Positions 24,662-41,666 of a DNA stretch of 64,000 bases are shown piece by piece. The stretch is from positions 1 to 64,000 of IMG/VR virus record IMGVR_UViG_3300028197_001049. One strand, written 5' to 3'. Numbering within the stretch: position 1 is the first letter of the stretch; each line of letters begins with the position of its first letter. A program made the position numbers and the translations under genes. The stretch comes from a virus. Under the pieces are notes generated by a model. It had not been told where the DNA came from. It made no database searches and saw only the letters and a program-made list of their open reading frames with translations.

Positions 24662-24663
24662 GA

Positions 24664-24698
24664 ATAAAAAAATACCCTAGTTTCCTAAAGGTATTTAT
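24664..24698 (-). terminator. Terminator of the 24702-25325 gene, overlapping a late promoter
   Basis: A 7-bp inverted repeat AAATACC/GGTATTT (arms at about 24670-24676 and 24691-24697) is followed on the minus strand by a T-rich run (complement of the A-tract 24666-24672). One arm contains part of the gp13 late promoter TATAAATA (24692-24699). The stem is AT-rich, so terminator strength is uncertain. Confidence 0.5.
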
Positions 24699-24699
24699 A
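24692..24699 (-). promoter_or_regulatory. Late promoter of gp13 (TATAAATA)
   Basis: Exact late promoter on the minus strand, 30 bases before the gp13 start, embedded in the inverted repeat described for the adjacent terminator. Confidence 0.78.
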
Positions 24700-24701
24700 A
24701 C

Positions 24702-25325
24702 CTATACTCCTTCGCCAGTTTTCCAGAACATTGCTGTAGTATTAAATGAAATTACAATCTTATGTCGGTCACATTTTTGCTCAATGGTATCATGATGTAA
24801 ATTGGAATGAAATAACAGTAGTCTATTATCTTCACATTTTATTGGATACATGTTAGTGGAAAAATCATTAACATTATCTGGTTGTGCTACTGCACTAAAT
24901 TTATTAGGATCATAAAACTGTAACCAATTTTCTTCATTGGTTTGAACATAAAAAGCACCCGAAATAAAACTTCCTGGATGAGTATGGGGGAAAAGATAAT
25001 TTCCTTTCTCTCCAATGTTAAACCACATTTGAGATATTTTAATATTTCTGGCAATAAACTCGTTATACCCATACGCAAGAAGAAACTCATAGATGTGTTT
25101 TTCTACTTCTTTAGTCAGATACTTAAATGGCGGAATTCTATGGAGACTATTTTTTTCATGATGTGAAGAATGTACATTGAAATAATCATTTTGATTGAAT
25201 GCATTATCTTTCCATAAGGAATAAATTTCTTTTTTAAATTCTTCATTATAGTCAGAACAAACATCATCCGCAGCATATACTGTTTGCGGTAATATTGCGA
25301 TCAATTCACCTTTACTTGTTTTCAT
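24702..25325 (-). CDS. 2OG-Fe(II) oxygenase family protein (TIGR02466-like)
   Basis: 207 residues. Clear match to the phage TIGR02466 oxygenases: ISQMWFNIGEKGNYLFPHTHPGS with H114 and H116, ISGAFYVQT, a LQFYDP strand, then LLLFHSNLHHDTIEQ with H177/H178 and the R/K-x-VISFN ending that holds the 2-oxoglutarate-binding basic residue. It probably hydroxylates a phage or host protein or metabolite; the substrate is unknown. It overlaps the 96-residue gene upstream by four bases (ATGA) and is the last gene before the neck operon, in an accessory patch rich in oxygenase-like genes. Confidence 0.83.
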   Translation of the reverse strand: MKTSKGELIAILPQTVYAADDVCSDYNEEFKKEIYSLWKDNAFNQNDYFNVHSSHHEKNSLHRIPPFKYLTKEVEKHIYEFLLAYGYNEFIARNIKISQMWFNIGEKGNYLFPHTHPGSFISGAFYVQTNEENWLQFYDPNKFSAVAQPDNVNDFSTNMYPIKCEDNRLLLFHSNLHHDTIEQKCDRHKIVISFNTTAMFWKTGEGV

Positions 25326-25612
25326 TCATTATCCTCATTATTATTAATCATATCATATTCTTCTTTATATTCAACTTCTTCCAGAAACCAATGTTTTGCA
25401 GATGCGAGGTTGTCAAAAACTTTTACTTGATCTTGAAACTCACACCAAAATAAAAGATTTTCTGGAATCTCTTTATTATCTACAGGTGGGAGATCTTCTT
25501 CTGGAGAACCTTCATCAATGAAAGCGTCAATAACCATGTGAGTTTTTTCACCCCATTTCTTTTCAAGTTCTTCAATAACTTGATATAGGGGGATATCCGT
25601 ATCAATGCTCAT
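25322..25612 (-). CDS. Conserved hypothetical protein, 96 residues
   Basis: The start at 25612 (MSIDTDIPLYQVIEELEKKW) is chosen because the longer open frame to 25834 would run through the divergent plus-strand gene and has an unlikely hydrophobic, non-protein-like N-terminus. The product is acidic with a central PEEDLPPVDN linker and a C-terminal LLFWCEFQDQVKVFDNLASAKHWFLEE helix. No family recognised. It is coupled to the oxygenase downstream and divergent from the plus-strand island, with a 92-base gap between the two starts. Confidence 0.6.
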   Translation of the reverse strand: MSIDTDIPLYQVIEELEKKWGEKTHMVIDAFIDEGSPEEDLPPVDNKEIPENLLFWCEFQDQVKVFDNLASAKHWFLEEVEYKEEYDMINNNEDNE

Positions 25613-25622
25613 TTTAACTGGT

Positions 25623-25630
25623 AATAAATA
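25623..25630 (+). promoter_or_regulatory. Possible plus-strand late promoter (AATAAATA)
   Basis: NATAAATA on the plus strand, 74 bases before the start of the first island gene, upstream of a sigma70-type promoter. Distance is longer than at other late promoters here, so it may be chance. Confidence 0.35.
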
Positions 25631-25653: not shown

Positions 25654-25681
25654 TTGATTTGAGTGAAAAATGTGTTATAAT
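25654..25681 (+). promoter_or_regulatory. Sigma70 promoter of the plus-strand island
   Basis: TTGATT (25654-25659), 16-base spacer, perfect TATAAT (25676-25681) with an extended -10 TGT just before it. The first gene of the island starts 23 bases downstream. A host-type early promoter. Confidence 0.75.
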
Positions 25682-25704
25682 GTAGTGTATGTACGACAAA
25701 AACA

Positions 25705-26136
25705 ATGAGCATTCAAATTTTACTTCTTGAAACCGGCGAGTCTGTAATTGCAGATGTAAGAGAAGCACTTGATCCAGGCGAAAATAAATCTTTGGGGTAT
25801 TTGGTTGATCAACCCTATGAAGTAAGAGTATCAATGAATCAAAGAATTAATACTGAAGATATTGATGATGCGAATCTTGAAAATTCTTCTTCTGTTGAAT
25901 TTAGAGCGTGGGCACCATTATCTGCTGAAAGAACTTATCGTTTTACTGAGGATTTTGTTCGTTGTATCTATAAACCACATGAAGAAGTTGTGGGTCAATA
26001 TTTTGAGATTCTTCAAAAATGGCAAGCAGCAAATACAAAAACCGTTTATCCTGAGAAATCTTTAACTAATACATCACCTTTCATTGGAAATGAATCTGAA
26101 GATCCATCACAAGCATTAGTTTCAGAATCTAACTGA
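25705..26136 (+). CDS. Sm-like conserved cyanophage protein (copy 3)
   Basis: 143 residues. The N-terminus SIQILLLETGESVIADVREAL, the middle SVEFRAWAPL and the C-terminal FVRCIYKPHEEVVGQYFEIL follow the same plan as the 96-residue protein at 1102-1392 (TGEDVIAEV, FVAWSPM, FVIYVAEAAQEIVDQY), so the two are clear paralogues; the N-terminus is also like 7389-7802. The last 30 residues are a disordered polar tail. It is the first gene of the plus-strand island, 23 bases after a strong sigma70 promoter, so it should be expressed early. Sm/Hfq-type fold and RNA binding are inferences from the strand pattern. Confidence 0.72.
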   Translation: MSIQILLLETGESVIADVREALDPGENKSLGYLVDQPYEVRVSMNQRINTEDIDDANLENSSSVEFRAWAPLSAERTYRFTEDFVRCIYKPHEEVVGQYFEILQKWQAANTKTVYPEKSLTNTSPFIGNESEDPSQALVSESN

Positions 26137-26147
26137 GGAATATAAAA

Positions 26148-26987
26148 ATGGCATTAATTGATACCATCAACATTTTTGATAACTTAAATAATCTTAGAGC
26201 AAATAACGAAAATTATGAAGTTGAAGACTACGACGATTATGTTGTAGTTGATAACTTTGCGTTTGATATTCAAAAGTTTGAATCATCGCTTTTAAAATTT
26301 CCATTTGATGTCGGTCATCAAGTTGCAGAAATTTTATATGAACATAGTGATGATAAACAAGAATTTAGAAGACCCGACCTGGGTGCAATTCAACTATATC
26401 CTAATCATTACTTTGATAACTACATCAGAAACATTCATGAGATTTTAGTTGATACTGAGTATGTTCCAACTACATTGGAAGGTCAATATTATAATCAGGA
26501 ATACTATCAATTTCTGACTACGACTGCTTTAATTAATGGTCATTTAATGTATGAGGGCATGATTATCAATGAAAATGCAAATTTTCCTTGCCCTGAAAGT
26601 GGAGAGTATACCGCTACTTTAATGTTTGACAACGATACTGAAGATCATAAAATTGGACTAAATTTCTGGAATTTCCAATATGAGGACAAATCATATAGTG
26701 GTACTAGTGAGATTATGCTAGAAGAAGAAGAACTCCAAAGAGAAATTCAAGATGTTTTAAACTTGAAGTGTATGGTAAATAATGATCTCGTTAAATATGA
26801 AGAAGTGAAAGACCATCCTATGTTTAAAAAAGCTCATTATATTCCATCTAAAAGAAACCGACTTGTTATCTGGAAAAGTGATAAATTCACTACCCCACAA
26901 TTTACAGAAAATGAAAGGTATACTTTTACTTGTTCTTTTGCAACTCCCCAATGTCAGCAGCAACAACAACAGCATTACGAAGAATAA
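26148..26987 (+). CDS. Oxygenase-like paralogue lacking metal ligands
   Basis: 279 residues with a good SD (GAGGAA). It lines up along its whole length with the next gene (26951-27796): YVVVDNFAFDIQKFESSLLKFPF with its KYLRIKNVLKRPDDLAEFCSKFPC-type segment; EYTATLMFDND with FSIAANFYLTD; NFWNFQ with TSFYKI; and HYIPSKRNRLVIWKSDKF with YIPAEYNSCLMYRGKIW. At the place of the partner's H-x-D it has NFPCPES, and at the distal histidine a threonine, so the Fe(II) site is lost. The C-terminus ends in CQQQQQQHYEE, encoded by a CAA/CAG run that overlaps the start of the next gene. It may be a regulatory or structural partner of the intact enzyme; that is inference. Confidence 0.65.
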   Translation: MALIDTINIFDNLNNLRANNENYEVEDYDDYVVVDNFAFDIQKFESSLLKFPFDVGHQVAEILYEHSDDKQEFRRPDLGAIQLYPNHYFDNYIRNIHEILVDTEYVPTTLEGQYYNQEYYQFLTTTALINGHLMYEGMIINENANFPCPESGEYTATLMFDNDTEDHKIGLNFWNFQYEDKSYSGTSEIMLEEEELQREIQDVLNLKCMVNNDLVKYEEVKDHPMFKKAHYIPSKRNRLVIWKSDKFTTPQFTENERYTFTCSFATPQCQQQQQQHYEE

Positions 26988-27796
26988 CCCTAGATAAATT
27001 TTCTAGATATACTTCTAAAGAGTTAGAAGAGATATGTGAATTTAATCCTGATATGGAAGTAGAACTTCATAAACATGAAGGAGGAAAATATCTTAGAATA
27101 AAAAATGTTTTGAAAAGACCTGATGATCTTGCAGAGTTTTGTTCAAAATTTCCATGTCAGGACAGAAATAAATCAATTGAACTTGGTCAATCATCTGCGG
27201 TAAAAAGTAAAGCTCCAGGGTTTCAACAACCAATTGATGACATTTACCTGACTAAATTGAATAGTCAAGTTGCTAAAGTTGGAAGGGATAATAAACTTTT
27301 TAAGTATAGTTTAAATGATATTAGATTTAGAAACTATACTAATTGCTGCTACCCTAGCATGAAATCAATTGGCAAGAATTATATGCCGCATGTTGATTAT
27401 TTTTCAATTGCTGCAAATTTTTACCTGACTGATGTAAAAAATACAGGAACTTCTTTTTATAAAATTAATACTAAAACAAATCCAATTTATACTGATGATG
27501 ATCTTAGCAGAAGATTAAACGAACCTGATATTAAAGAAGTATATGATAAAATTATTTCTAGTAAATCATTTCCACCCTCATGTTTAACTCAGGAAAAATA
27601 TGATGAACTTATGCTTGAAGATGATGTAGTTGAAGACTGGGTTCACTGGAGTGGTAATGATATTTGGTCTAGATATCTTTACATCCCTGCTGAATATAAT
27701 TCTTGTTTAATGTATCGCGGCAAAATTTGGCATACAATTACATATGATCCTACAGTTGAAGATGTTAGATATTCTTTAGTTTCTGTAATTAGATAA
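26951..27796 (+). CDS. 2OG-Fe(II) oxygenase-like protein (DUF6445-like)
   Basis: 281 residues from the ATG at 26951, which lies inside the glutamine run of the previous gene (37-base overlap; an in-frame TTG at 26930 is less likely). The iron site reads NYMPHVDYFSIAANFYL (H147-x-D149), GTSFYKI, and YRGKIWHTITYDP (H261) with R273 in DVRYSLVSVI for 2-oxoglutarate. This order resembles the DUF6445 group of putative dioxygenases that I recall from marine phages. Substrate unknown. It ends the plus-strand island, just before a bidirectional terminator. No obvious SD precedes the start, so translation may depend on coupling to the upstream gene. Confidence 0.7.
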   Translation: MSAATTTALRRITLDKFSRYTSKELEEICEFNPDMEVELHKHEGGKYLRIKNVLKRPDDLAEFCSKFPCQDRNKSIELGQSSAVKSKAPGFQQPIDDIYLTKLNSQVAKVGRDNKLFKYSLNDIRFRNYTNCCYPSMKSIGKNYMPHVDYFSIAANFYLTDVKNTGTSFYKINTKTNPIYTDDDLSRRLNEPDIKEVYDKIISSKSFPPSCLTQEKYDELMLEDDVVEDWVHWSGNDIWSRYLYIPAEYNSCLMYRGKIWHTITYDPTVEDVRYSLVSVIR

Positions 27797-27832
27797 TAAA
27801 AAAGGGAGGTCGTAAGACCCCCCTCTTTTTTT
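27797..27832. terminator. Bidirectional terminator between convergent genes
   Basis: Hairpin GGGAGGTC-GTAA-GACCCCCC with one mismatch, an A-run on the left (27797-27803) and a T-run on the right (27826-27832). It can stop the plus-strand island and the minus-strand fibre operon, which converge here. Confidence 0.8.
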
Positions 27833-27844
27833 ATGAATCTGATA

Positions 27845-28138
27845 TCAGACCCATTCACCTCTATTCAATTTGTTACCTGGACCTGATGCGATACCATTCC
27901 AAAGTTCAAGAAGTTTTGATACCTGAACTTTATTATGAAGATGGGTTACATCATCTCTCCAACCTGAACGCATTTGGAGTGCATATTCAACTGCATCCAA
28001 ATACTTAGTTTTAGCAGCTTCTGCAGCTGCCTCATCTTCTATATCTCTAAAAGTCCAATCTACTTGATTGAGAAGGGACTCAAGTCCCGCAAAAGTGCGG
28101 GACTGATCTGTGATTGCATTAAGAATACGATCAGCCAT
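27845..28138 (-). CDS. Small conserved virion-type protein
   Basis: 97 residues, helical: ADRILNAITDQSRTFAGLESLLNQVDWTF followed by AAAEAAKTKYLDAVEYALQMRSGWRDDVTHLHNKVQVSKLLELWNG. I do not recognise a named family; similar small helical proteins sit next to fibre genes in marine T4-like phages. It lies 18 bases downstream of the 1907-residue gene with a good SD (AGGAGA), and is the last gene of that operon, ending at the bidirectional terminator. Confidence 0.6.
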   Translation of the reverse strand: MADRILNAITDQSRTFAGLESLLNQVDWTFRDIEDEAAAEAAKTKYLDAVEYALQMRSGWRDDVTHLHNKVQVSKLLELWNGIASGPGNKLNRGEWV

Positions 28139-28156: not shown

Positions 28157-31100
28157 TTATGCTTGTGATTCCTTCCAGGTTACCCTTGCGGATACTGAAT
28201 AAGGATTGTTGATGCTAACGTCCGATGAGTCAACAACGTTTGCGATGATAGTCAGAATATCTGGTCCGTTAGGGAAGGTTCCGTCACCACCAAGAATTGA
28301 GTTGCCAAGGTCAGAGATGTCGGTAAGATCAAAGTTAGTTGCCTGCGTTTGACCATTACCAGCACCTGCCGCTCTCAGCGATAGAATTCCTGAACCACCT
28401 GAGATAATATCATCAGGCGCGTGCTTGACAAGTTGACATAGTGAAGGTTCCTGAACATTCTGATATGCGTCAGTATTTAATTGAGCATTCAGTTTCAAAG
28501 TAAGTTCTGTATCATGAGTTGTCAAGATACCCAAGGAAGAAAGCGACAATTGCATTCTGTTGATAATTTCTCTTTCTCCCAGTGCGCCCGTGATTGATGA
28601 GTCAACCGAAGGTGCAAGTCTAATAGAGATCAGAGGAATATCAGTTGGAATTGAGTTGTCAGTTCCAGAAGGAGCACCAACACCGAAAGTGGTACTACTG
28701 TTAACAGCAGGATTACCTATCTTAGTGTTGATAACACTAGCATAGTTCCATGGGAACTCTTCAGTAGTACCTTCAAGATATTGAATATAAACAAAGTGTG
28801 TACTGCCTGATGTACGAGTTCTTGGGTCAATTGCTCTACCGTCAGCGAAGTAACCGCTCGCGGCACTAGAATGGAAGATCAGTGAGTTGGAAGGTAGACT
28901 ACCTGCATCACTAGATGCGAATGGAATTCTGATAAAGAATTTCCTATTATACCAAGAAGACCACTCTGACTGAATAGTAGAGTTGGAATTTGTATTAACG
29001 TCAACAGCAGTTGCGTTAGTAAACTTCTGGACATTACCAGCAGCGGTGAACAGATACGCTTCGTCATCCTGATACATACCATCCATAATAACTGAAGTAC
29101 CCCAGTGGAACAGAGTTCCAGTGAATGTTGGGGATGAACTATTTTCAATTTCATAACGTGCAGGCAAGTTACCTGAACGGAAATAAGATTCTGTCAATTT
29201 GTTATTATGCTTGAATTGATGGACATACTTGACATGACCGTTTTGATCTTTGAATCCAAAACGAATCTTACCAGCACCATACCAGGAATAATCCATGTAG
29301 CACATCTGAATCTTAGTAATATCCAGAGTGTATCCAGAAGGACCATCACCATCTGCTTTATCAAGGTTCCACTCGGCTTGTGGTACTTTCGTATCTACAG
29401 TCTTAGTACAGATAACCTCACTTGTAGTGATGCCGCGATAAGAAGGTTGAACTGTGAGTTGAGTGTTACTGGTTACTTTAACAACCCTGTAAGTCATGCC
29501 ACGAACAACAATATTTTCACCCTCAATAATTTCTGATGTAAATTTAGTATCAGTACCAATAATAATATTAGAATTATTCTCAACAGAGACTAAACCAGGA
29601 AGTTGAAGAACTGAACTTCTTCTTACACAGTTAATGGTGTTGCCATCAAACTCATAGTAGAAACCATTTTGCTCATCAAACATACCTGCGCGAATATCGC
29701 AACCAGACCAGTTAAGAACTTGTGCTTGTGGGAATCCGCCAGAAGAGGAAATTGCAGGTGTTGATTCAAGAAGATATTGGAATCTGAATTCATCAATAAC
29801 TGTATTGACGAATGACTCGTTATTGAATGCAACGTCATCAGAATTAATGACTTTCATCTTCAGACCTACAGTAAAGTTATGTGGTTTAGAACATCTTACT
29901 TCACCAAGAATTAATTGATGGAATGTAATTGTTGTGCCACTAATAGGTGCAGTTAAAGCATTAGAAATGACAACTGTTGTTGCATTTTTAATTTGCGAAA
30001 TTCTAGTTCCAGATACAATACTTGCTGATCCAGTTACGAACATATGAAGTTCATATACACTTGAGTCAGCAACTGTAAGTTCAGTACTATTCTGCGCCGC
30101 GCTAATAGCCTCAGATGCAGTAGCCTTTGGACCAGTTACATAAGTAAGATCCAAAATTGGTGTCAGAGGAATAAAGTTGATCGCATATGAAGTCTGGATA
30201 CCTTTACCTGACTGATAACGGAAGTACTTACGAGTCTGTCTAGAGATTCTAGAGTTAGGTGACTTAGAAGTACCGATTTCCATACCACCATCAAATGGTC
30301 TATGGAGATAGAATCCATCAGGACGTACATAGATGTAAGAAGGAATCAGATAAACGATGCTAGAACCAGTAAAGTCTAAGTCAATATCTACTAGCAGGTT
30401 GTCGTCATCTGTAACTGCAGTAATTTTTCTTTCAATAATTACACCAGGAGTTGTTGCTGGGTTTACAATTCTCAGTACATCTCCAATTTTGAAGAATCTT
30501 TGGAATGCAGAACTAGAACCAATAATTTTTCTACTACCTGATTCAACAGTCAGACTACCAGGACCAGTAACTTCTCCCGAAAGATTACTACTGATCAACT
30601 TATGGAAACCGCTACCAGAAGAAATTGTAATATTTACTGGAGGAGCAGCAAGTGCATCCGCCTCAGTATCACAGATTTCAATCGTATTATGATCAATTTG
30701 AGAAACAAAGTAATCTTTGCCATCAGTAAGACCAGAAATTGCAGTGTTACCACCAGCATCATAGATTACCTTAGTACCAGATCCAAAGAAATGGTTATTG
30801 ATAGTAATCTGATTGTTGGCAATGTTAGATCCAGCATTGAAACTCTTATTAGTTGGTGGAATCTTGAATGGAATTGTGACTTGAAGTTCAGTCTCACTGA
30901 CTGCTTTAGTTGTGGTATAAGAACCATCAACAACACCAAAATCAGCAGTTGTGTTCTCAAATGTGTGAGAACCAGTACCTTGTGATGTTATATCAATAAT
31001 TGATCCACCTTGAGATGCCGCTAATTGGAATCTGTTTCCAGTGATAGGATAAACATAGTAGGAAGTTCCATTAGTTAATCCACCAATCTCAGTACCAGTT

Positions 31101-33880
31101 GTATCATACTTAAGAAGTTCACCAGCAGAGAACTGGTTATTTGCAATAAAGATGCTATCAGCAAATGGGTTATTGATAACGGCAGTAAATCCAATCGTAC
31201 CATCAATACCAGCAAGTCTTAATGGTGAAGCACCTGTACTTGTTTTAATTCTAAATCGGTTAGAATCAATTTTGTCCATATACCAAACGGTGCCAGCACT
31301 GTAAGTACTTCTATTACCAGCATTATTATAGTAATAGTGAATATTACCACTACCAGATTGGGTTGCACTTGAATTTGTTACCAAACCATGATTTTCTGCA
31401 TAGAAACTATCATTAGTGGACGTGTTTCTCTTAGCCAACATAATATACATGTTGGTTTGTCCATCAGAATTAGGACCATTGAAACTACGGTTCAGAGTAC
31501 TACCATGTCCAACGTTATGATACCAGTGGAAGTGCGTTGATCCTCTGATTCTAAAGTTTTGTCCACTACTTTCGTGCTGAGTATAGAAGTTATCAGTCCA
31601 GTAAGTTTTTACGTTATTTCCGTTACCATTACCAGTAGTATATCCATGACTATGATTACCATTATTCTGCCCGTTTACACCCTGGTTTTCGTGGTCAGTA
31701 AGGAAGTCATATGTTCCTTGCCATTGAGACGTTCCAAGAGGAAGAGATTGATGGTGGTAACCATAGGTTTGCCAGAAAGTTCCATAATATTGACGCCATG
31801 ACCAGTTATACCAGTACCAGTTAGAACTTGCACCAAAACCAGGACCAGGAGAGTTTCCACTACCTTGTCTGTTAGTACTAAAGTGAACCGTGAGATCCCA
31901 GTTCTGTCTACCTAATCCATAGTTACTGTCAATGTTACTGAAATCCCAACCAGAATAAGTATTACCAAAGATATAATAAGTACGGAGATATGTATACCAC
32001 TGACTATATGCTTTATATTCTTCATAGATGTTATAAACAAGACCTACATTGTGGTTACCAAAAGTAAACGTACCACCAGTGGAAAGGTTTTGAGTATAAT
32101 TCAATCTCATACTGTGATTCAGTTTGAAATTGTTATCATCAATTTTTTGAATATAATAAACCTGCATTCTAGCCAAACCAGCAATAGGAGTATCTCCTGG
32201 GTTTGGATAGTAAAGAACAGCAGCTTTATCATGGAATCCGTGACTATCAATATTAATAGTATCAGTACTATAATTAATATCGGACTCATCAAATCTCTTA
32301 GTATAAGTAGATTCGTAGTTATAAGGTACTACTTTTGTTTCATCAACATCAAGCACACCAGATGCTTGAGCTAATGTTTCAACAATCTCATTAGCAATTC
32401 CTGTTCCTTGCCAACCGTTAACATTTCCTGGTTCGTCTGCTGTTGAATCGGGAATCTCCAGAACTTTTGGAGAAACGGTATTTACAAAGTAGAAGTTAGT
32501 ATCATCAGCAAAACCATGCTCATACTTAGTTGTAAGCATGACTTTGGTTTGAGTCGCATAACTAATGACCGCATAATCTCCCATTCCTTGGTGATTAACA
32601 CAGTTATACCATAAGTTATTGTAACTTGGACTAGAACTAGTGACATAAACTCTAGTATATGCTCCAGCTGAACCGGCAGTTCCAGATACATAGACATATT
32701 GAGACAATACATTACCAGCATTACCGGCTGATGTAACATCTTGGGCATCAGCAAACTCAAGTTGATGAGTCGTGTTGGTGCTGCTTGACTGATCAAACAC
32801 ATAGATAGCACCTCTAGCAAGATCTAGTCTAGGTGTAAGAACCTCATCAATAAAATACTTATTAGAAGTAGTTCCAACACCGCCAGCTGCGATTACATAA
32901 TCAATTTCAGTACCTTGAATATCAACCGTGTCGCCATCTGTGAAAGTGCCCGATGCATTTGCAATGGTGAGTAAGGTTGATCCACCAGCATAACCACCAC
33001 TACTATCTCCACCAACAGCAACAACTGTTGCTAGTGCCCCACCACTTGTAGACAAGGGAGTATTGATAGTAATATCAGCACCAAGATCAGCAGTTACTGT
33101 AAGTACCTGTACAGGTTTGACTGTTACAACTTTTTCAAAATAATCTGATGTAATACCTTTAGAAGCACTCAAATTAACTTGAGAACCTTGGAAGAATTGT
33201 CCCGGAATAATAGAAGTATAAGTACCTTGCAATAGTGTAGTTGCAGGTTGATTAGCTCTTGCTTTATATGTAAATGTTGTGGTGCTTGGTACTGATTGAA
33301 TTAGATATGCACCTTCAGCGGTTACCGAGCTAAGACCAGTAACTGTGATGGGAACACCAACTTGTAAATTGTGATCATACTGTGTAGTAACAGTAATAAT
33401 TTCACTATCAAGAATCGCCCCTACTGTGTCAATGAACGGAATAGTAGTATCAGCGGTAGATGCATAGAACGAAGGAATATTGTTAATCGTCTGAAGTGTT
33501 TCCCACTTAGATGATTGTGGACCGTATTCAAAGTCAGTATCAATCAGGTTTTCTGGGTTGGATACTCTAAATTTTGAAACAGCGTCAACATAAGTCTCGG
33601 AAGGCTCAATATTAACGTAATCTTTTTCGTAGAAAATCTGCAGTTCATCAGAGGCATTCATGCTGCCTGTTGCAAAATTAATGATGAAAGTAGTTTCATC
33701 GCTAGCTGTATCATAAGTTCTTGAGTCCAAACCCAAGGAATTGTCACTAAAACTATAGATGTTTACATTATCAGTAACGTTAGTGATCAGCAGCAGCCTT
33801 GTTGATGCGATATTACCCTTTACCTTTACAGACCTAGCGGCTGGATCAAAGGTGTAATAGTGGATTAGTTTCTTTGCCAT
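28157..33880 (-). CDS. Large virion structural protein (fibre/baseplate type), 1907 residues
   Basis: The N-terminus KLIHYYTFDPAARSVKVKGNI is a short conserved docking region typical of cyanophage structural proteins. The body contains several copies of a beta-rich repeat with the plan N-x-F-x-x-G-x-x-V/L-x-Y-D...GL-x-x-G-x-x-YYV-x-x-I-x-x-N-x-F-x-L, for instance near 32,150-32,260, 31,020-31,170 and 30,630-30,810. A strikingly aromatic and His/Asn-rich insert lies at about 31,440-32,020. The C-terminal 400 residues are less repetitive (LVSVENNSNIIIGTDTKF, then a carbohydrate-binding-like jelly-roll pattern). Likely a tail fibre or baseplate spike; no T4 counterpart identified. Confidence 0.7.
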   Translation of the reverse strand: MAKKLIHYYTFDPAARSVKVKGNIASTRLLLITNVTDNVNIYSFSDNSLGLDSRTYDTASDETTFIINFATGSMNASDELQIFYEKDYVNIEPSETYVDAVSKFRVSNPENLIDTDFEYGPQSSKWETLQTINNIPSFYASTADTTIPFIDTVGAILDSEIITVTTQYDHNLQVGVPITVTGLSSVTAEGAYLIQSVPSTTTFTYKARANQPATTLLQGTYTSIIPGQFFQGSQVNLSASKGITSDYFEKVVTVKPVQVLTVTADLGADITINTPLSTSGGALATVVAVGGDSSGGYAGGSTLLTIANASGTFTDGDTVDIQGTEIDYVIAAGGVGTTSNKYFIDEVLTPRLDLARGAIYVFDQSSSTNTTHQLEFADAQDVTSAGNAGNVLSQYVYVSGTAGSAGAYTRVYVTSSSPSYNNLWYNCVNHQGMGDYAVISYATQTKVMLTTKYEHGFADDTNFYFVNTVSPKVLEIPDSTADEPGNVNGWQGTGIANEIVETLAQASGVLDVDETKVVPYNYESTYTKRFDESDINYSTDTINIDSHGFHDKAAVLYYPNPGDTPIAGLARMQVYYIQKIDDNNFKLNHSMRLNYTQNLSTGGTFTFGNHNVGLVYNIYEEYKAYSQWYTYLRTYYIFGNTYSGWDFSNIDSNYGLGRQNWDLTVHFSTNRQGSGNSPGPGFGASSNWYWYNWSWRQYYGTFWQTYGYHHQSLPLGTSQWQGTYDFLTDHENQGVNGQNNGNHSHGYTTGNGNGNNVKTYWTDNFYTQHESSGQNFRIRGSTHFHWYHNVGHGSTLNRSFNGPNSDGQTNMYIMLAKRNTSTNDSFYAENHGLVTNSSATQSGSGNIHYYYNNAGNRSTYSAGTVWYMDKIDSNRFRIKTSTGASPLRLAGIDGTIGFTAVINNPFADSIFIANNQFSAGELLKYDTTGTEIGGLTNGTSYYVYPITGNRFQLAASQGGSIIDITSQGTGSHTFENTTADFGVVDGSYTTTKAVSETELQVTIPFKIPPTNKSFNAGSNIANNQITINNHFFGSGTKVIYDAGGNTAISGLTDGKDYFVSQIDHNTIEICDTEADALAAPPVNITISSGSGFHKLISSNLSGEVTGPGSLTVESGSRKIIGSSSAFQRFFKIGDVLRIVNPATTPGVIIERKITAVTDDDNLLVDIDLDFTGSSIVYLIPSYIYVRPDGFYLHRPFDGGMEIGTSKSPNSRISRQTRKYFRYQSGKGIQTSYAINFIPLTPILDLTYVTGPKATASEAISAAQNSTELTVADSSVYELHMFVTGSASIVSGTRISQIKNATTVVISNALTAPISGTTITFHQLILGEVRCSKPHNFTVGLKMKVINSDDVAFNNESFVNTVIDEFRFQYLLESTPAISSSGGFPQAQVLNWSGCDIRAGMFDEQNGFYYEFDGNTINCVRRSSVLQLPGLVSVENNSNIIIGTDTKFTSEIIEGENIVVRGMTYRVVKVTSNTQLTVQPSYRGITTSEVICTKTVDTKVPQAEWNLDKADGDGPSGYTLDITKIQMCYMDYSWYGAGKIRFGFKDQNGHVKYVHQFKHNNKLTESYFRSGNLPARYEIENSSSPTFTGTLFHWGTSVIMDGMYQDDEAYLFTAAGNVQKFTNATAVDVNTNSNSTIQSEWSSWYNRKFFIRIPFASSDAGSLPSNSLIFHSSAASGYFADGRAIDPRTRTSGSTHFVYIQYLEGTTEEFPWNYASVINTKIGNPAVNSSTTFGVGAPSGTDNSIPTDIPLISIRLAPSVDSSITGALGEREIINRMQLSLSSLGILTTHDTELTLKLNAQLNTDAYQNVQEPSLCQLVKHAPDDIISGGSGILSLRAAGAGNGQTQATNFDLTDISDLGNSILGGDGTFPNGPDILTIIANVVDSSDVSINNPYSVSARVTWKESQA

Positions 33881-34152: not shown

Positions 34153-37100
34153 TTATATTATGGTTCCGAATTTTCTTGGTGGACTAAAGAGGAAGAGTCT
34201 TGTCTTCGCATCACCTGCAGTTATAAGTTCCGCTGTAGTCGCTTGTGTAATTCTGGTGACACTGCCTGGGTTGTTTCCAATAAGTGTAAACAAATTGGTA
34301 GAAACAACTTCTCCCTGTGCCCCAATAGAAGTTTCATCATAATCAATTGCTCTAGCAATAGTTGCTCCATTGAGACCGAAGAGAGAACCAGATCCTTCAT
34401 ATGCTCTAGAACGAGTATCATGAGAATCACCAGTAGCACTAACATATGCGAATCCACTGTTAGCACGGGTAAGTTTGATATCAGTTGCTTCACCTGAGAT
34501 TGTTGCCGATCCTTCAGTATCGTAATTACCTTTAGTGAAGGATTCCGTAGCACCATTGCGGAATTCAAAGAGAGTAGTGTTCTCAACATCAATTGTTCTA
34601 GATTCTGCTGCTCCTCCGAAGGTTGAAAGTGTACCTTCACCAACGAAACTAAGAGTAATGATTGGAACAACTGTATCATTATGAACATTTGCAGTTCCAG
34701 AACCAGCGAATCCTCTTGTTCTCGTGGAAGTAGCATTACCATTAAATTCATATAGGAATGTTTCTTCACCAGGATTAAATCCAACAACTTCAGCGCCACC
34801 ACCAAATGTAGAGAAAGAACCTTCTCCATCATAGTTACCCTTAGTAAAGGATTCTTCATTAATTCCAGAAAGGAACGTAGATCCAGTACCTGCGAAGATT
34901 CTAGTTCTGGAATCGTCACTATCACCACTGATTCTGAAGAGACCCGTTGTTTCCGGTGCGACAGATGCAACTTCTGCTGCGTTACCAACACTAAAGAGAG
35001 AACCAGAACCAGAGAAACTTCTGTCTCTGAGGACACCCGCAAATCCTTGGAATGTAAAGAGACCGATAGATTCTTCATCTATTGTTACCGCTTCGGCAGC
35101 ACCATTAAATCCGAAGAGTGAACCTTCTCCAATATAAGGTCTTGCGAATGCTTCGTCCAGATTATCGCTGATAGTAATATTACCTTCAGCAATAGCAGAT
35201 CTGACGAATGCATTTGCTTCTCCACCAGAAGCCTTGAATAGAACAGTGCTTTCTGGTTTGGAAATTGCTGTAACTTCTGCTGCACTTCCTGCACTGAAGA
35301 GCGAACCTTCTCCAGCAAATGCTCTTGTGCGAATATTTTCTGATTGACCAGAAATAAATTCAGTTCCAATTCCTTCGTATGCGCGTGAACGATCTGTATT
35401 CGCAGATCCAGAAGATACGAAAAGAACGGTGCTTTCTGGTGCATCAATTGTTGTAGATTCTGCACCACCACCGAATCCGAAGATTTGACCACCACCAAAG
35501 ATTCTGAGATTAATCTTAACAATTGGTTCACCACTAAAGGTGAATGCTCTTGTGTCGGTGAATGGATTAAATCCAACAACCTCTGCACTAGAACCAGCAG
35601 TGAAGAGTGATCCACTACCATTATAAACAATGGTGCGAACAGGAATTGCATCACCACCAATCGCAATACTTTCACCTTCAGGATTAGTGAAGATGTTGAA
35701 TCTAAGTTGAAGTTCAGGAGTACCAGAAAGTCTGGGTGAACCATCAGGACGTGATGTCCAAGAAGGAAGCCACTTAGATGGTGAAGTACCGTAGGCACTA
35801 AAGAGAACTGTTTCTGTTGATGGATTATATCCAGCTACCTCAGTTGCACTATTGAATGTGAACAGTGAACCCGAAGTTCCAGGTTCTGCAAGATCACCAT
35901 AGTATTGATAAACATTAATCTTGCGAGTATCACCATCACCATAGACGAATGCAGATCCACCGATTTTACCGTATATGGAGTTGACATAACGAGGAGATGG
36001 ACGGTAACTGCGCCACTCATTACCTTGGTTGTGGGTATAAATTCTGGGGAATACACCCTTAGATACATATGCACCCTTAAATGCAACTTCAGTATTACCA
36101 AGAATTCTTGGAGTTCCAAGAAGATGTTGAGTTCTCCAATGTGGACGGAATCTAACCGCAGCATTAGGAGCGAGAGGTGTCTCCTCCTTAATCTTGATAT
36201 TTCCAGATCCGACCCAGTTTTCAACATGCTTCTCAACTGCAGCGCCAGAGAATCCAAAGAGGAATGTTTCTTCTGGTGGGTTAAACCCAACACACTCTGA
36301 AGTTCCGATTGCAGTGAATAGTGACCCACTAGAGAACTCAGCAAATGTCTGCTTATGACCGCTATCTCCACCAGTAATTTCAAACAGTCTTCCAAATGGA
36401 TTTTCATTACCTGGAAGAATTACAATATCACCATGATCAGTATTTGGTGGTAGATAAGCATCTACTACTGAACCATAATTTTCTGTTGTTGTAGGTGTAG
36501 ATGCAACGGTTGCGAAATCTTCATAAGTTGTTCCGAGAACAATAGAGGAAGAATTATACGAGAATACTGCCTTCTCAATTTTCTCTCCAATGTGGAAGAG
36601 TGATCCTTCACCAACATATACTTTGGCGAGGGCATTAATTTCTCCACCAGAAGTCTTGAAGAGAATTGTAGATTCTCCTCCTTGAGAACCAAACTTCTCA
36701 ATAGCAGTACCGCTAATTGTAAGTTTAAATGTATTGGTTGGTGGAGTGGATATTTTAATAGCACCATGTCCACCGCCACGGAATCTGAATAATCCGTATG
36801 GTTTGGTGGTCTGAGTAATAAAGATCTCACCATAATCAAAGTCACCACCACTAGTTGTGGTTAATAAACCATAGTCATCAATTGTTGATGCCGAACTGGT
36901 GATGTATCCATATTCTTCTGGAGACTCAAATACCTCAACAGAAGATGAATTATATGAGAATACTGCCTTCTCAATTTTCTCTCCAATGTGGAAGAGTGAT
37001 CCAGAACCAACAAAATCTCTAGCTCTTGGAGTTTCAGCAATACCAGAAACTTTGAACTGTTCATCAGGAACACCTCTCCAATGTGGAGTGAATGTAAAGT

Positions 37101-40100
37101 CAGTAGCGGCGCTTTGACCTTTATAGAAGGAAATTTCACCTTTACCACTATAAGGACCACGGAAGAATTGAGTTCTTGTGTTGCCAGTAAACTTATAGAG
37201 ACCAGTTGCAGATTGTGTAGTCTCAGTGATAATGATTTGACCGAAGTCAACTTCACCGCCAGGAGTAAGATCACTACCAATTGTACCGTGATCAAGATTC
37301 TGAGTTGAATTTGAATTGATGAGACCGTAATCTTCTGGGGTCTCAACAACAACAATAGATCCTGTGGTATATCTAAAGGTTGCGCTTTCAACCTTATCAC
37401 CAAGACCAAAGAGTCTACCCTTACCAACAAAATCTCTTGCTCTTGGAGTTTCAGCATTACCGCTGAGTTTTCCTTGTTCGTAAGGACGTGATCTCCAATG
37501 TGGAGTAAATGTAAAGTCTGCAGGATCTTGCTGCTCATTAAAGATCCTAATAGTAGTTGGTCTAACAACATAAGGACCACGGAAGAATTGTGTATCACCT
37601 TCACCGCTGAGTTGATATAACCCAGTCAGAGGTTGAATTGTCTCCGTAATAATAACCTGTCCGAGATCTTCCTCGCCTTCAGTTACTATATCAACAATTT
37701 GACCATAGTTGATATTTGTAGTTGAATTATTAGCGATTGAACCATAGTCATCATCAATAACGAACGTAACAACAGAACTAGAGTTGTAGTTAAAGGTTGC
37801 ACTTTCAAACTTATCTCCAATACTGAAGAGTCTTCCCCCGCCAATGAAAGGTCTTGCCTGAGCATATGTATTAAATTCTCCGTCAGGAGCATTACTAAGT
37901 TTTGGAGACCCGACAGGAACACCTCTCCAGTGAGGCATAAATCTGAAGTCAGCAGGATCTTGCTGATCATTGAAGATCCTGATTGGTGCGCTGAGTTTAT
38001 CCCAAGCAAAGATTGGGAAGAACTGTTCAATCGCAGTACCCTTGATTTCAAATAGTTTTCCGAGTGGATTCTCATCACCAGGAAGAGACCACATAGAACC
38101 ACGATCTTCTTCTAACGCATAACTGAAGAAGTCACCATTATCAATAGTTTGAGTTGCATTATTAGCAACGCTTCCATAATCAGTAGGATCTTCAACCTCA
38201 ACAATAGAAGATATATTGTAAGAATATGCAGTTCTTTCAATTCTATCTCCAATACTAAAGAGAGAACCGGATGCAATGTAAGGTCTAGAGAAACTATTCT
38301 CTCCTTTACTGGAAGTAGAGAAGAGTACCGTAGACTCTCCCGCTCCCGATGTAAACTTGAGATTACTATATCCACCAGTAATTCTGACTCTTGCAATAGA
38401 TCCAGTATATGCAACTGGATTAGCATGAGCAATGTCACCACCAGCTAGTTCAAATAACTTGCCAAATGGTTGAGTTGTTTGTGTGGCAATTACTTGACCG
38501 AGGTCAGTCTCACCATATCCTGGTTCTGAAATCTGACCATAATCAGATATGGAACCAGACGCAGTAATTAGACCATTATCAATTGGTGTTTGAACTGTTG
38601 CAATTGAAGAATCATTGTAGTCAAAGACTGCTGATTCATCAACTGTACCAGAACTAAACAAACTACCTGATGTGAAGTAAGTACCTTTAGAGGTGATAAT
38701 GGAGGACATTCCTCCAATGATTTTAATAAATTCACCCTGACTTGCTTCCTGTGGGCGATGACCATAAACATAAATTTGAACTGCAGGTTCACTAAACTGT
38801 ACAGTTGCTGCACCACTAATATTAATTTCACTTTCGCCAAGATATGCTCTTGGATTAGCATGTGCTCTATCACCACCAGTGATCTTAAGATTACCAAACT
38901 TGAAGAATCCTGGTTTTAATTGACCATAATCTAAAATACCATTTGTAAATGTTTGCGTGAGTATACCATAATCTTCATTGATTCCTGCTGATTGATCAAC
39001 AATTCCAGCATCAGAACTTCCGATAGTCTCATAGACTGGTGCAGGACCTTCTGCATTATAAGAGAATATTCTTCTTTCAGTTTTCTCACCGATATGGAAG
39101 AGTGATCCAGAACCAACATGCGTCTTGGCAAATGCATCGGGAATGATGTGGTTAGTGACCACAATTCCACCACGACTTCTATAATGGGGAATGAACGCAA
39201 TCTGACTGCTTTGACCCTCTCCATAGGAGTCAATGTGCTTGGTAATAGAAAGCGATCCTGAACCAACAAAGTCTCTAGATCTAGCAGCACCATGACCACC
39301 ACCACTAAATTTGAATAAACCAAACGTTGGAGTAGTTTGTGTTATTAGAACACTACCGTTATCAGCATCTCCTTCAGTAACAACTCCTGCTATCTGACCA
39401 TAATCATCAGAAGTACTATGAGATGATGCAACACTACCATTTTCTACTAATGGTTCTAGGGTTACTGCAGATTCAGTAGTATAATCATATACCTTCGCTT
39501 CATTACCATTATTAAATCCAAACAGCACACCGCTGCCTTGATATCCTACTCTTGCAAATGCTTCTGGATTACCGCCACTGAATGTTAATCCAATGACATC
39601 TCTTCTGATAAATTGTCCTGTTGCTAGATCACGTCCAACAACGTAAGTTTGTGCTCCAGATGGTTCCTCAAGTTGATCAACACCACCTGAAAGAACTGAG
39701 AATGAACCCGAACCAGAATAAGATTTAATTTTACCGAGATTACTATTGAATCCAGTAATACTGAACAGACCGAAGGGATTACTACCACCGACATCAACGA
39801 CTGTACCGTTGTCTGTCTCTCCTTCAGTAACAATTCCAGTTACTTGACCATAGTCATTAGAAGAACCTACAGTAGCGGCGACTACACCATAGTCGGCATC
39901 GCTACCATAGGTTATTATTGCATCTTCATTATAGCTGCTTGTGGCACTATCATGTGCAGCACCATAAGTCTTGAGACTTGGTACACCACCAGAACCCCCT
40001 ATGTAAGGAGCGAGCATTCGCTCCAGACCGCTGCCAATCTCAAATAGGGTGCCAGACCCCGCCCATGCCTGTTTAGTGACTACAATGGCGCTCACGCGCA

Positions 40101-40416
40101 ATATAATCGTTTCCGCAATTGCTACGAAGACTACAGTAGCAGCATTCTCTTCGCCACCACTAAAGTTAATATTACCTGATACTGGATATAACGTTTCAGT
40201 AACCCAAACATTTTCATAATCAATAGACCCAGTAACTTCATTTACAATAAAATCTTGACCTACAGGAACAATAAAATCAACGCCTACATTTACAATACTA
40301 TCAAAAAATTTCTCGCCATGATTTACCGTAGACGTAGCAACATCAGTGATGCTACCGAGATCTTCGGTCTCATATACGTGAATTTGAGATGAATCGTAAA
40401 TATAGACGTTGTTCAT
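34153..40416 (-). CDS. Repeat-built virion structural protein, 2087 residues
   Basis: Residues 1 to about 1350 consist of about ten copies of a module of roughly 110-190 residues: G-x-GSLF-x-x-G-x-x-x-E-x-x-x-F-x-YN-x-SS, then several DYG-containing turns (for example DYGQI, DYGSIA, DFGQI) and a G-L-F/Y-x-F/L-x-G strand. The remaining part is made of shorter copies of GSLFxxGxAAE followed by ETxLFxxSG. The protein is therefore almost pure beta-repeat, consistent with a long fibrous or baseplate-decorating protein. The DNA repeats leave few stops in other frames, which explains long spurious antisense frames here. A terminator hairpin (40434-40457) lies 18 bases upstream of the start. Function is inferred from architecture only. 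Confidence 0.72.
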   Translation of the reverse strand: MNNVYIYDSSQIHVYETEDLGSITDVATSTVNHGEKFFDSIVNVGVDFIVPVGQDFIVNEVTGSIDYENVWVTETLYPVSGNINFSGGEENAATVVFVAIAETIILRVSAIVVTKQAWAGSGTLFEIGSGLERMLAPYIGGSGGVPSLKTYGAAHDSATSSYNEDAIITYGSDADYGVVAATVGSSNDYGQVTGIVTEGETDNGTVVDVGGSNPFGLFSITGFNSNLGKIKSYSGSGSFSVLSGGVDQLEEPSGAQTYVVGRDLATGQFIRRDVIGLTFSGGNPEAFARVGYQGSGVLFGFNNGNEAKVYDYTTESAVTLEPLVENGSVASSHSTSDDYGQIAGVVTEGDADNGSVLITQTTPTFGLFKFSGGGHGAARSRDFVGSGSLSITKHIDSYGEGQSSQIAFIPHYRSRGGIVVTNHIIPDAFAKTHVGSGSLFHIGEKTERRIFSYNAEGPAPVYETIGSSDAGIVDQSAGINEDYGILTQTFTNGILDYGQLKPGFFKFGNLKITGGDRAHANPRAYLGESEINISGAATVQFSEPAVQIYVYGHRPQEASQGEFIKIIGGMSSIITSKGTYFTSGSLFSSGTVDESAVFDYNDSSIATVQTPIDNGLITASGSISDYGQISEPGYGETDLGQVIATQTTQPFGKLFELAGGDIAHANPVAYTGSIARVRITGGYSNLKFTSGAGESTVLFSTSSKGENSFSRPYIASGSLFSIGDRIERTAYSYNISSIVEVEDPTDYGSVANNATQTIDNGDFFSYALEEDRGSMWSLPGDENPLGKLFEIKGTAIEQFFPIFAWDKLSAPIRIFNDQQDPADFRFMPHWRGVPVGSPKLSNAPDGEFNTYAQARPFIGGGRLFSIGDKFESATFNYNSSSVVTFVIDDDYGSIANNSTTNINYGQIVDIVTEGEEDLGQVIITETIQPLTGLYQLSGEGDTQFFRGPYVVRPTTIRIFNEQQDPADFTFTPHWRSRPYEQGKLSGNAETPRARDFVGKGRLFGLGDKVESATFRYTTGSIVVVETPEDYGLINSNSTQNLDHGTIGSDLTPGGEVDFGQIIITETTQSATGLYKFTGNTRTQFFRGPYSGKGEISFYKGQSAATDFTFTPHWRGVPDEQFKVSGIAETPRARDFVGSGSLFHIGEKIEKAVFSYNSSSVEVFESPEEYGYITSSASTIDDYGLLTTTSGGDFDYGEIFITQTTKPYGLFRFRGGGHGAIKISTPPTNTFKLTISGTAIEKFGSQGGESTILFKTSGGEINALAKVYVGEGSLFHIGEKIEKAVFSYNSSSIVLGTTYEDFATVASTPTTTENYGSVVDAYLPPNTDHGDIVILPGNENPFGRLFEITGGDSGHKQTFAEFSSGSLFTAIGTSECVGFNPPEETFLFGFSGAAVEKHVENWVGSGNIKIKEETPLAPNAAVRFRPHWRTQHLLGTPRILGNTEVAFKGAYVSKGVFPRIYTHNQGNEWRSYRPSPRYVNSIYGKIGGSAFVYGDGDTRKINVYQYYGDLAEPGTSGSLFTFNSATEVAGYNPSTETVLFSAYGTSPSKWLPSWTSRPDGSPRLSGTPELQLRFNIFTNPEGESIAIGGDAIPVRTIVYNGSGSLFTAGSSAEVVGFNPFTDTRAFTFSGEPIVKINLRIFGGGQIFGFGGGAESTTIDAPESTVLFVSSGSANTDRSRAYEGIGTEFISGQSENIRTRAFAGEGSLFSAGSAAEVTAISKPESTVLFKASGGEANAFVRSAIAEGNITISDNLDEAFARPYIGEGSLFGFNGAAEAVTIDEESIGLFTFQGFAGVLRDRSFSGSGSLFSVGNAAEVASVAPETTGLFRISGDSDDSRTRIFAGTGSTFLSGINEESFTKGNYDGEGSFSTFGGGAEVVGFNPGEETFLYEFNGNATSTRTRGFAGSGTANVHNDTVVPIITLSFVGEGTLSTFGGAAESRTIDVENTTLFEFRNGATESFTKGNYDTEGSATISGEATDIKLTRANSGFAYVSATGDSHDTRSRAYEGSGSLFGLNGATIARAIDYDETSIGAQGEVVSTNLFTLIGNNPGSVTRITQATTAELITAGDAKTRLFLFSPPRKFGTII

Positions 40417-40487: not shown

Positions 40488-40495
40488 TATATATC
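40488..40495 (-). promoter_or_regulatory. Possible variant late promoter (GATATATA)
   Basis: One mismatch from GATAAATA on the minus strand, 72 bases before the 2087-residue gene and upstream of a terminator hairpin. The same variant precedes the 2514-residue gene at 53691-53698. Confidence 0.3.
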
Positions 40496-41666
40496 AGTCA
40501 AGGCTGACGTTCAATGTGATCTTGATTTGGTCACCGTTGTTCTGAATTGGGTACGGACCATTTGTAAATCTTTCAGCAAACATGATGCTGCTGTGAAGAG
40601 TTAGGTCACCAGTTCCGGCAAGAGCAGGAGTGGTATGGAATGTATTCGCATCAGGTACTTCAAATACAGTATATGTAGCAGCAACAGCCGTTGAAGTTGA
40701 ACCTTGAGCGATGTAGAGAACATCACCAACAGTTAGACTATGACCAGTAGCAGTTACTTTACTAAAGCTAAGTTGAATTTCTTCATCAGTAGCAGTCTGA
40801 ATGTTATCAGTCAGGTTAGCACTGAGATAGATAATTCTCTGAAGACGATCAATACCGATGATAGTTGTAGCAGCAGGAACAGCATTGTTATTGCCAACAA
40901 CTTGTCCAACTGTGATATCATCCATGATACCAGCAACGGCAGGCAGAGTGATGAAGTTTTGTCCAACAACACCAGCACAAGGATCAGCGTTAGTACCCTT
41001 TGAAAGAACTGTACCAGCAGCTGCAGCAGCAGCGTCAAGAACACCGTGAATGCTCAGAGGCATGTTGTTTGCACGAGCCAGATAGTAACCATAAATGTTA
41101 CCAGCAGCAGCAGAGAATGTAAATACCTGCTCGGGATATGTAGCGGTAGTTACTCCACCAGTGAAGTTGATTGAGCCTGAAACAGCACCAGAGTTAGCAA
41201 CAGTCATGACGACAGTTGAACCGTCTACTCTAGATACTTTAGCGCCTGCGCCAATACCAGTACCACTGATAAGATTGCCTACACTGATTGTACCAGTTAC
41301 ACTAGCAACTGAAATAGTGAATGCACCTGAAGAACCAGTACCAGTACCAGAAGCAATAGGATCTCCAGCAGTGGAGATTGCCCAACGGTTACCATTCAGA
41401 AGAATACCATACATGTTGGTGTAGGTCTGGTCTGAACGATTATCAACACCTGTTGGATAATCCGTGTTTGCAGCAGTGCCATATCCATTGGTATTACCAT
41501 CGGCATATGGTTCATAATAAGCAGTCTGTGAAGGGACATCGCCCTCAGCAGGTGTTGTATTAGACGTAAAAAGTTTAAGAACTAAGTTTCTGGGAATCTG
41601 GTGAGTGGCGTTTAGAAGATAACGCAGCGACTCCAGTTCACCAATATTTGGTACTAAAAGTGCCAT
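40494..41666 (-). CDS. Virion structural protein, 390 residues
   Basis: The N-terminal domain ALLVPNIGELESLRYLLNAT, then LVLKLFTSNTTPAEGD, DRSDQTYTNMYGILLNGN and a C-terminal FAERFTNGPYPIQNNGDQIKITLNVSLD together look like the phage fibre/short spike proteins whose ends form a closing beta sheet. The middle third is a G/A/S/T-rich beta repeat (GTISVGNLISGTGIGAGAKVSRVDGSTV), typical of collagen-free fibre shafts. Its late promoter lies 40 bases upstream. I cannot name a T4 counterpart. Confidence 0.62.
   Translation of the reverse strand: MALLVPNIGELESLRYLLNATHQIPRNLVLKLFTSNTTPAEGDVPSQTAYYEPYADGNTNGYGTAANTDYPTGVDNRSDQTYTNMYGILLNGNRWAISTAGDPIASGTGTGSSGAFTISVASVTGTISVGNLISGTGIGAGAKVSRVDGSTVVMTVANSGAVSGSINFTGGVTTATYPEQVFTFSAAAGNIYGYYLARANNMPLSIHGVLDAAAAAAGTVLSKGTNADPCAGVVGQNFITLPAVAGIMDDITVGQVVGNNNAVPAATTIIGIDRLQRIIYLSANLTDNIQTATDEEIQLSFSKVTATGHSLTVGDVLYIAQGSTSTAVAATYTVFEVPDANTFHTTPALAGTGDLTLHSSIMFAERFTNGPYPIQNNGDQIKITLNVSLD

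Follow-up and report, generated by a model that had tools for sequence, protein, structure and literature searches.

The window analysed here is a 64 kb stretch of a 78.8 kb IMG/VR record from a T4-like myovirus. Identity to cyanophages is 68% for the major capsid protein and only about 40% for gp14. A close relative with a 97% identical gp13 (G001) carries two photosystem reaction-centre genes, and the host of the window phage is therefore likely a cyanobacterium. All convincing genes of the window lie on the minus strand except three, at 25705–26136 (P1), 26148–26987 (P2) and 26954–27796 (P3), with the P2 and P3 reading frames overlapping by 34 nt. The remaining plus-strand ORFs of at least 80 aa in the window are antisense within larger minus-strand genes; beyond it, other plus-strand ORFs occur from about 75.4 kb of the record. 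The three genes stand between gp13/gp14 on one side and the gene for a fibre-like virion protein on the other. A preliminary description made from the sequence of this window had proposed such a plus-strand island (25654–27832) in a minus-strand phage block, separating neck genes from the fibre gene and bounded by an extended −10 sigma70 promoter and a bidirectional terminator. We confirm the layout and gene order, and both signals are borne out by their conservation in relatives, as follows.

The candidate promoter, TTGATT-N16-TGTTATAAT with TATAAT as its −10 element, lies on the plus strand at 25654–25681 and has 10/12 consensus matches. A match in a single sequence is weak evidence because such matches are frequent in the window (29 found versus 18 expected). 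Extended −10 sites carrying a perfect TATAAT number only three over both strands. Conservation across relatives settles the promoter call on sequence grounds. A site with at least 10/12 matches is found 21–28 nt before the P1 start in 22/22 sequences (the window and 21 relatives), compared to a background of 1.7% of random 65-mers, and it is kept although the proteins behind it share just 30–50% identity. Most members of a second lineage also have it; three of the 11 members printed gave no strong call within the 70 nt searched, at least two of them apparently from a misassigned start codon.

A T4-type late promoter motif, ATAAATA, matches exactly at 25624–25630 on the plus strand, 5′ of P1. 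This motif has 16 copies on the minus strand of the window, mostly just 5′ of late (structural) genes, and only three on the plus strand. T4-type late signals are thus recognizable as a TATAAATA-like motif 5′ of late genes, including the conserved plus-strand copy before P1; the T4 late consensus applied to cyanophages is TATAAAT (PMC3037559). Among 32 island loci, 29 have [AC]TAAATA within 170 nt 5′ of P1, mostly at −82 to −86, compared to 1.6% of background windows. Since this motif is conserved, the island looks transcribable both early and late and is probably not expressed early only, as had been proposed.

The terminator (A-run, GC hairpin, T-run; 27796–27834, both strands) was missed by a simple scan of the window. 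Its hairpin folds with −15.4 (plus strand) and −21.1 kcal/mol (minus strand; z = −3.6 and −5.4, respectively), a stability equalled in 0/200 shuffles. An equivalent hairpin occurs 3′ of P3 in the 18 relatives printed. Together, these signals show P1-P2-P3 as one predicted transcription unit that has a host-type promoter and a terminator to itself.

Two variations on these signals were seen in the second lineage. Six members (L185, L187, L193, L194, L202 and L213) have a fourth plus-strand ORF after P3, at the position of the terminator. In L196, L185 and L213, perfect inverted repeats of 10–12 bp (GTACAGTATAAC...GTTATACTGTAC) lie 5′ of and inside the P1 promoter; they resemble operators, and 0/60 shuffles gave repeats as good. 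We rejected such a repeat as a general feature of the island, as it is clear in part of the second lineage only and absent from the window.

P1 (143 aa, 25705–26136, plus strand) matches the Sm-like family phrog_431 (E = 1e-21) and, below the family cut-off, DUF6561 (E = 0.002). By sequence, P1 has no significant match in the PDB. It is 31% identical to an Sm-like protein encoded 5′ of a putative gp43 in G001, and this gp43-adjacent paralogue matches PDB 3by7. The earlier assignment of P1 as Sm-like is thus supported through a chain of homology, from P1 to the gp43-adjacent paralogue to 3by7, and not by a PDB match of P1 itself. By sequence comparison, P1 is a copy, now diverged, of the Sm-like protein encoded next to gp43. 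A shorter relative of P1 is located 5′ of gp43 in P-SSM7, and the paralogue in G001 lies 5′ of a large DNA-polymerase-like ORF. Compared to 3by7 (Sm-like, of putative cyanophage origin) and T4-GC 176, which is found beside gp43 and represents the copy to which P1 is homologous, P1 has a longer C-terminal part. The G001 locus (L114, C1:95851–96406) holds a tandem pair of DUF6561 Sm-like genes directly 5′ of the polymerase-like ORF, the second being the better match to 3by7.

P3 (280 aa, 26954–27796, plus strand) matches DUF6445 (E = 8e-6) and phrog_1644 (E = 3e-22). Its AF2 model (pLDDT 90) and the Foldseek matches of that model agree on a double-stranded beta-helix of the 2OG/Fe(II)-dependent oxygenase type. 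The matches are to prolyl, lysyl and other 2OG oxygenases, with a best E-value of 1e-5 to solved structures and probability 1.00. Superposition scores are modest (TM 0.35–0.45 by query length); the assignment therefore extends to the fold class and not to the substrate. The HxD...H triad and the 2OG-binding arginine (H146, D148, H260 and R272) are invariant in 33/33 complete unique members. P3 is therefore a 2OG/Fe(II) oxygenase by modelled fold, with all ligands kept and catalysis predicted.

P2 (279 aa, 26148–26987, plus strand) is homologous to P3 over its whole length (hhalign probability 99.9%). Its AF2 model (pLDDT 87) has the same fold, and its Foldseek matches are likewise 2OG oxygenases. 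In the alignment to P3, the H/D/H metal site of the window P2 has become C/E/T. Across 32 unique P2 proteins the HxD...H ligands are gone in 30 and kept in two (L201 and L222), a count that depends on the alignment. P2 is thus, as judged from these alignments, a P3 paralogue with a usually decayed metal site. Where the preliminary description had named two oxygenase-like proteins, the fold was right for both, but only P3 keeps the metal ligands. The Foldseek matches of the pair include the protein hydroxylases P4H, PHD2, OGFOD1, Tpa1 and lysyl hydroxylase, and also many small-molecule oxygenases.

Relatives of the pair are hard to find by direct search. Searching P3 against the PDB by sequence gave nothing meaningful, P2 had no tblastn match in named phages, and a direct DNA search of named phages found no match. 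Scans of IMG/VR with single P2 and P3 sequences gave no confirmed match, while an alignment profile of P3 succeeded there; the same profile had no match in bacterial genomes. We found no paper on DUF6445 in a non-exhaustive literature search. The phrog_1644 proteins T4-GC 941 of S-ShM2 and gp213 of syn9 are distant P3 homologues (22–24% identity). Their genes lie in another context, among 2OG oxygenases in S-ShM2, and neither P1 nor a P2 paralogue accompanies them in the stretches seen of either phage. The label ‘minor coat protein’ carried by phrog_1644, syn9 gp213 and S-ShM2 SShM2_041 is at odds with the oxygenase fold and the catalytic residues of P3, the family member in the window, and is probably an annotation error. 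A role of P2 and P3 as minor virion proteins, as this PHROG and RefSeq label and the annotations in the two phages would have it, is accordingly very improbable: the label is given without stated origin, the modelled fold of P3 is that of an oxygenase and its catalytic residues are invariant, and a host-type promoter on the opposite strand is unlike capsid genes.

The island has companions on both sides. A divergent 96-aa gene (25322–25612, minus strand) accompanies the island in all loci that extend to it, is missing from all island-free loci and diverges in step with the fibre (r = 0.81). Next to it, a gene for a 2OG-Fe(II) oxygenase (24702–25325, minus strand; PF13759, E = 5e-16; phrog_81) is a frequent but optional part of the cassette, missing from several island-bearing relatives such as L048, L049, L057 and L066. 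The three genes proposed at the outset are therefore less than the full unit, which always includes the 96-aa gene and often this oxygenase. On the other side, an ORF call for 97 aa without a Pfam or PHROG match (27845–28138, minus strand) lies between the terminator and the fibre gene. Many relatives have an ORF of 80–143 aa at this site and L048, L049, L057 and L066 have none, making it optional. Beyond it is the fibre-like protein of 1907 aa (28157–33880, minus strand), which matches phrog_5838, a family of virion structural proteins (E = 8e-164); from its annotation we take it to be the receptor-binding fibre.

The cassette has a sharp edge in the gp13 leader, which contains a late promoter (24662–24711, minus strand). 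In most pairs of relatives, the DNA aligns through gp14 and gp13 at 85–99.5% identity and stops 37–50 bp 5′ of the gp13 start; in four pairs with related cassettes the alignment extends past this breakpoint. At the empty site of three close relatives (L051, L059 and L033; gp13 88–91% identical), the gp13 late promoter and leader come straight after the fibre stop. The alignment stops and empty sites show that the block from gp13 leader to fibre stop is, as far as sequences tell, present or absent as a whole, bearing out the idea that the unit is gained or lost together.

To place the island in its relatives, 107 loci were collected by gp13 and gp14 searches. Close relatives have the fixed order gp13, (oxygenase), 96-aa gene, P1-P2-P3, fibre. 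The island proteins diverge far more than the backbone in these genomes: in pairs with identical or near-identical gp13, identity is about 26–45% for P1, 18–37% for P2 and 34–47% for P3. Mean identities are 37%, 29% and 41%, respectively, versus 63% for the fibre. Distances of P1, P2, P3 and the 96-aa gene correlate with fibre distances (Mantel r = 0.60–0.85, P = 0.0005, the limit of 2000 permutations). The correlation of island protein distances with gp13/gp14 is weak or nil (r = −0.02 to 0.23).

The P3 profile search gave 47 loci, 23 of them new and including a lineage with gp13 only 44–48% identical. In all 23 new loci, the island is beside this fibre type wherever the contig reaches. A search with the fibre C-terminus gave more than 544 confirmed loci, of which the best 80 were taken. 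Among these, all 40 loci whose fibre is at least 54% identical have the island, and none of the 40 at 51% or less does. After deduplication to 67 unique loci among the best 80 of more than 544, it stands by 35/35 fibres at least 54% identical to that of the window and by 0/32 others. Both backbones within this best 80 of more than 544 are split by fibre type, backbone I into 17 loci with the island and three without and backbone II into 13 and four. Some fibre loci are related by descent and these counts are not independent events; gp13 is absent from the fetched stretch in some island-free loci (22/32 with fibre identity <48.5%).

These comparisons show that, in the sequences sampled, the island always accompanies one fibre type and appears to move with it between two deeply separated backbones. 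Distance correlation alone does not prove functional matching because block exchange of neighbouring genes also produces it. The all-or-none presence on two backbones is a stronger argument for a functional tie. The preliminary description had called the island a moron-like cargo. As in a moron, there is an own promoter and terminator, and the island is present or absent among close relatives at a clean site, so its description as a separate unit that is gained and lost as a block holds. Its independence does not: place, order and orientation are fixed, and presence follows fibre type in 67/67 unique loci (among the best 80 of more than 544). A fixed three-gene unit with its own promoters, an obligate fibre partner and an enzyme/decayed-enzyme pair appears to be new; we found no prior description of such a fibre-tied unit in the literature searched, which is not exhaustive.

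The region itself is known. A hypervariable host recognition cluster has been reported beside gp14 in both pelagi- and cyanomyophages, and in pelagimyophages this region has been proposed to hold coinfection avoidance genes (PMC7029224). Among the frequent genes of marine phage metaviromic islands, Fe(II)-dependent oxygenases appear under host recognition (PMC3909814). The island shares with these regions its position next to the neck genes, their hypervariability and the presence of fibres (PMC7029224, PMC3909814). It differs in being a unit of fixed order and orientation with its own promoters and a single fibre type. The closest working precedent for a receptor-matched role, by analogy, is the llp-oad(hrs) module of T5/BF23, in which a small, early-expressed gene (llp) lies next to the gene for the receptor-binding protein and is exchanged with it as a matched functional module (PMC4728585, PMC9586334). 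The island is similarly linked to, and exchanged with, a putative receptor-binding gene, identified as a fibre by annotation. Unlike llp-oad(hrs), it is a three-gene operon with an oxygenase, has no lipoprotein and shows no homology, and exclusion is proposed for it here.

We consider the island probably a matched helper for host attachment and not stray cargo. Our leading reading, held tentatively and at somewhat less than even confidence, is that the island belongs to a single tail-fibre allele as its companion module and changes the receptor or surface of the host. From the observed fibre linkage we infer the following mechanism. Host polymerase would transcribe the island as soon as the DNA enters, and the late promoter would keep transcription going. 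P3, perhaps complexed with P2, would oxidise a host-surface component bound by this fibre type, or its synthesis pathway, and P1 may act on RNA. The outcome would be a receptor-matched block of re-adsorption, affecting both superinfection and loss of progeny on debris. The logic would be that of the T5 llp-oad module, with a cytoplasmic enzyme in place of the lipoprotein. The conserved host-type promoter and the rapid divergence favour, on sequence grounds, such a host-facing, receptor-matched role: a near-consensus host-type promoter in all sequences suits an early role better than virion assembly, and P1–P3 diverging faster than the fibre is expected if the proteins follow host targets. The conserved late motif also suits a role in virion assembly, which counts against exclusion. 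The full and more specific proposal, a module for exclusion or surface modification that combines a 2OG oxygenase with the decayed paralogue and the Sm-like protein, is firmly linked to one fibre allele and is driven by early and late promoters, is accordingly put forward with a little more reserve.

The late motif 5′ of P1 also fits a different explanation, ranked nearly as likely as the host-surface reading and possible at about the level of the exclusion proposal or just below, in which P3, with non-catalytic P2, hydroxylates or helps fold the adjacent fibre and each fibre allele needs its own enzyme. One-to-one linkage of island and fibre fits this equally, and the structural matches include protein hydroxylases, offset by the many small-molecule oxygenases that Foldseek returns as well. 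Downstream fibre chaperones are known in T4, Mu and V22 (PMC7289586), but their genes belong to the late operon and share its strand; the island is on the opposite strand with a conserved host-type promoter. An Sm-like P1 is left unexplained by fibre maturation. We looked for collagen repeats as a prolyl-hydroxylase target and found none. An aromatic-rich segment was considered as an island-specific substrate and rejected, since island-free fibres have it too.

It is also conceivable, although we think it unlikely, that the island is metabolic cargo, serving auxiliary 2OG metabolism or host takeover, that hitch-hikes beside a recombination hotspot, with the tie to the fibre being linkage only. 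Marine T4-like cyanophages do have many 2OG oxygenases, with proposed roles in nitrogen/2OG metabolism or repair (PMC3037559), and the region around the fibre gene is already known as a hypervariable island (PMC7029224, PMC3909814). Neutral cargo should, however, be lost from some fibres, and on two backbones the island is always present with one fibre type and always absent without it, occurring nowhere else in the loci found. Loose cargo looks different at this very site, where the optional oxygenase at 24702–25325 comes and goes.

Unnamed genes in the variable tail-fibre islands of marine phages are usually taken as cargo. An island that is obligately paired with one fibre type in two lineages predicts instead a testable function linked to attachment, and host-range switching in such phages would be the exchange of a multi-gene cassette and not of the fibre alone. 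If the host-surface reading is true in its exclusion form, each host-range allele would bring its own exclusion function along when exchanged in nature. P3 and P2 also offer a natural enzyme/dead-enzyme pair for study, and the analysis corrects a misleading ‘minor coat protein’ label.

Further variation was observed around the island. The aromatic-rich segment of the fibre (gene at 28157–33880), at residues about 610–850, spans ~200 residues with an abundance of Tyr, Trp, His, Asn and Gly. Aromatic residues plus His make up as much as 35% of a 60-aa stretch, a composition reminiscent of variable binding loops. On the gp13 side, L055, L029 and L040 have extra minus-strand ORFs of about 180–418 aa between gp13 and the 96-aa gene, forming a second cargo spot. 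Past the fibre, a second large fibre-like ORF (34153–40416) is about 40% identical between relatives, and the gene following it (40494–41666) is 66–88% identical; the ORF probably forms the far end of this variable block.
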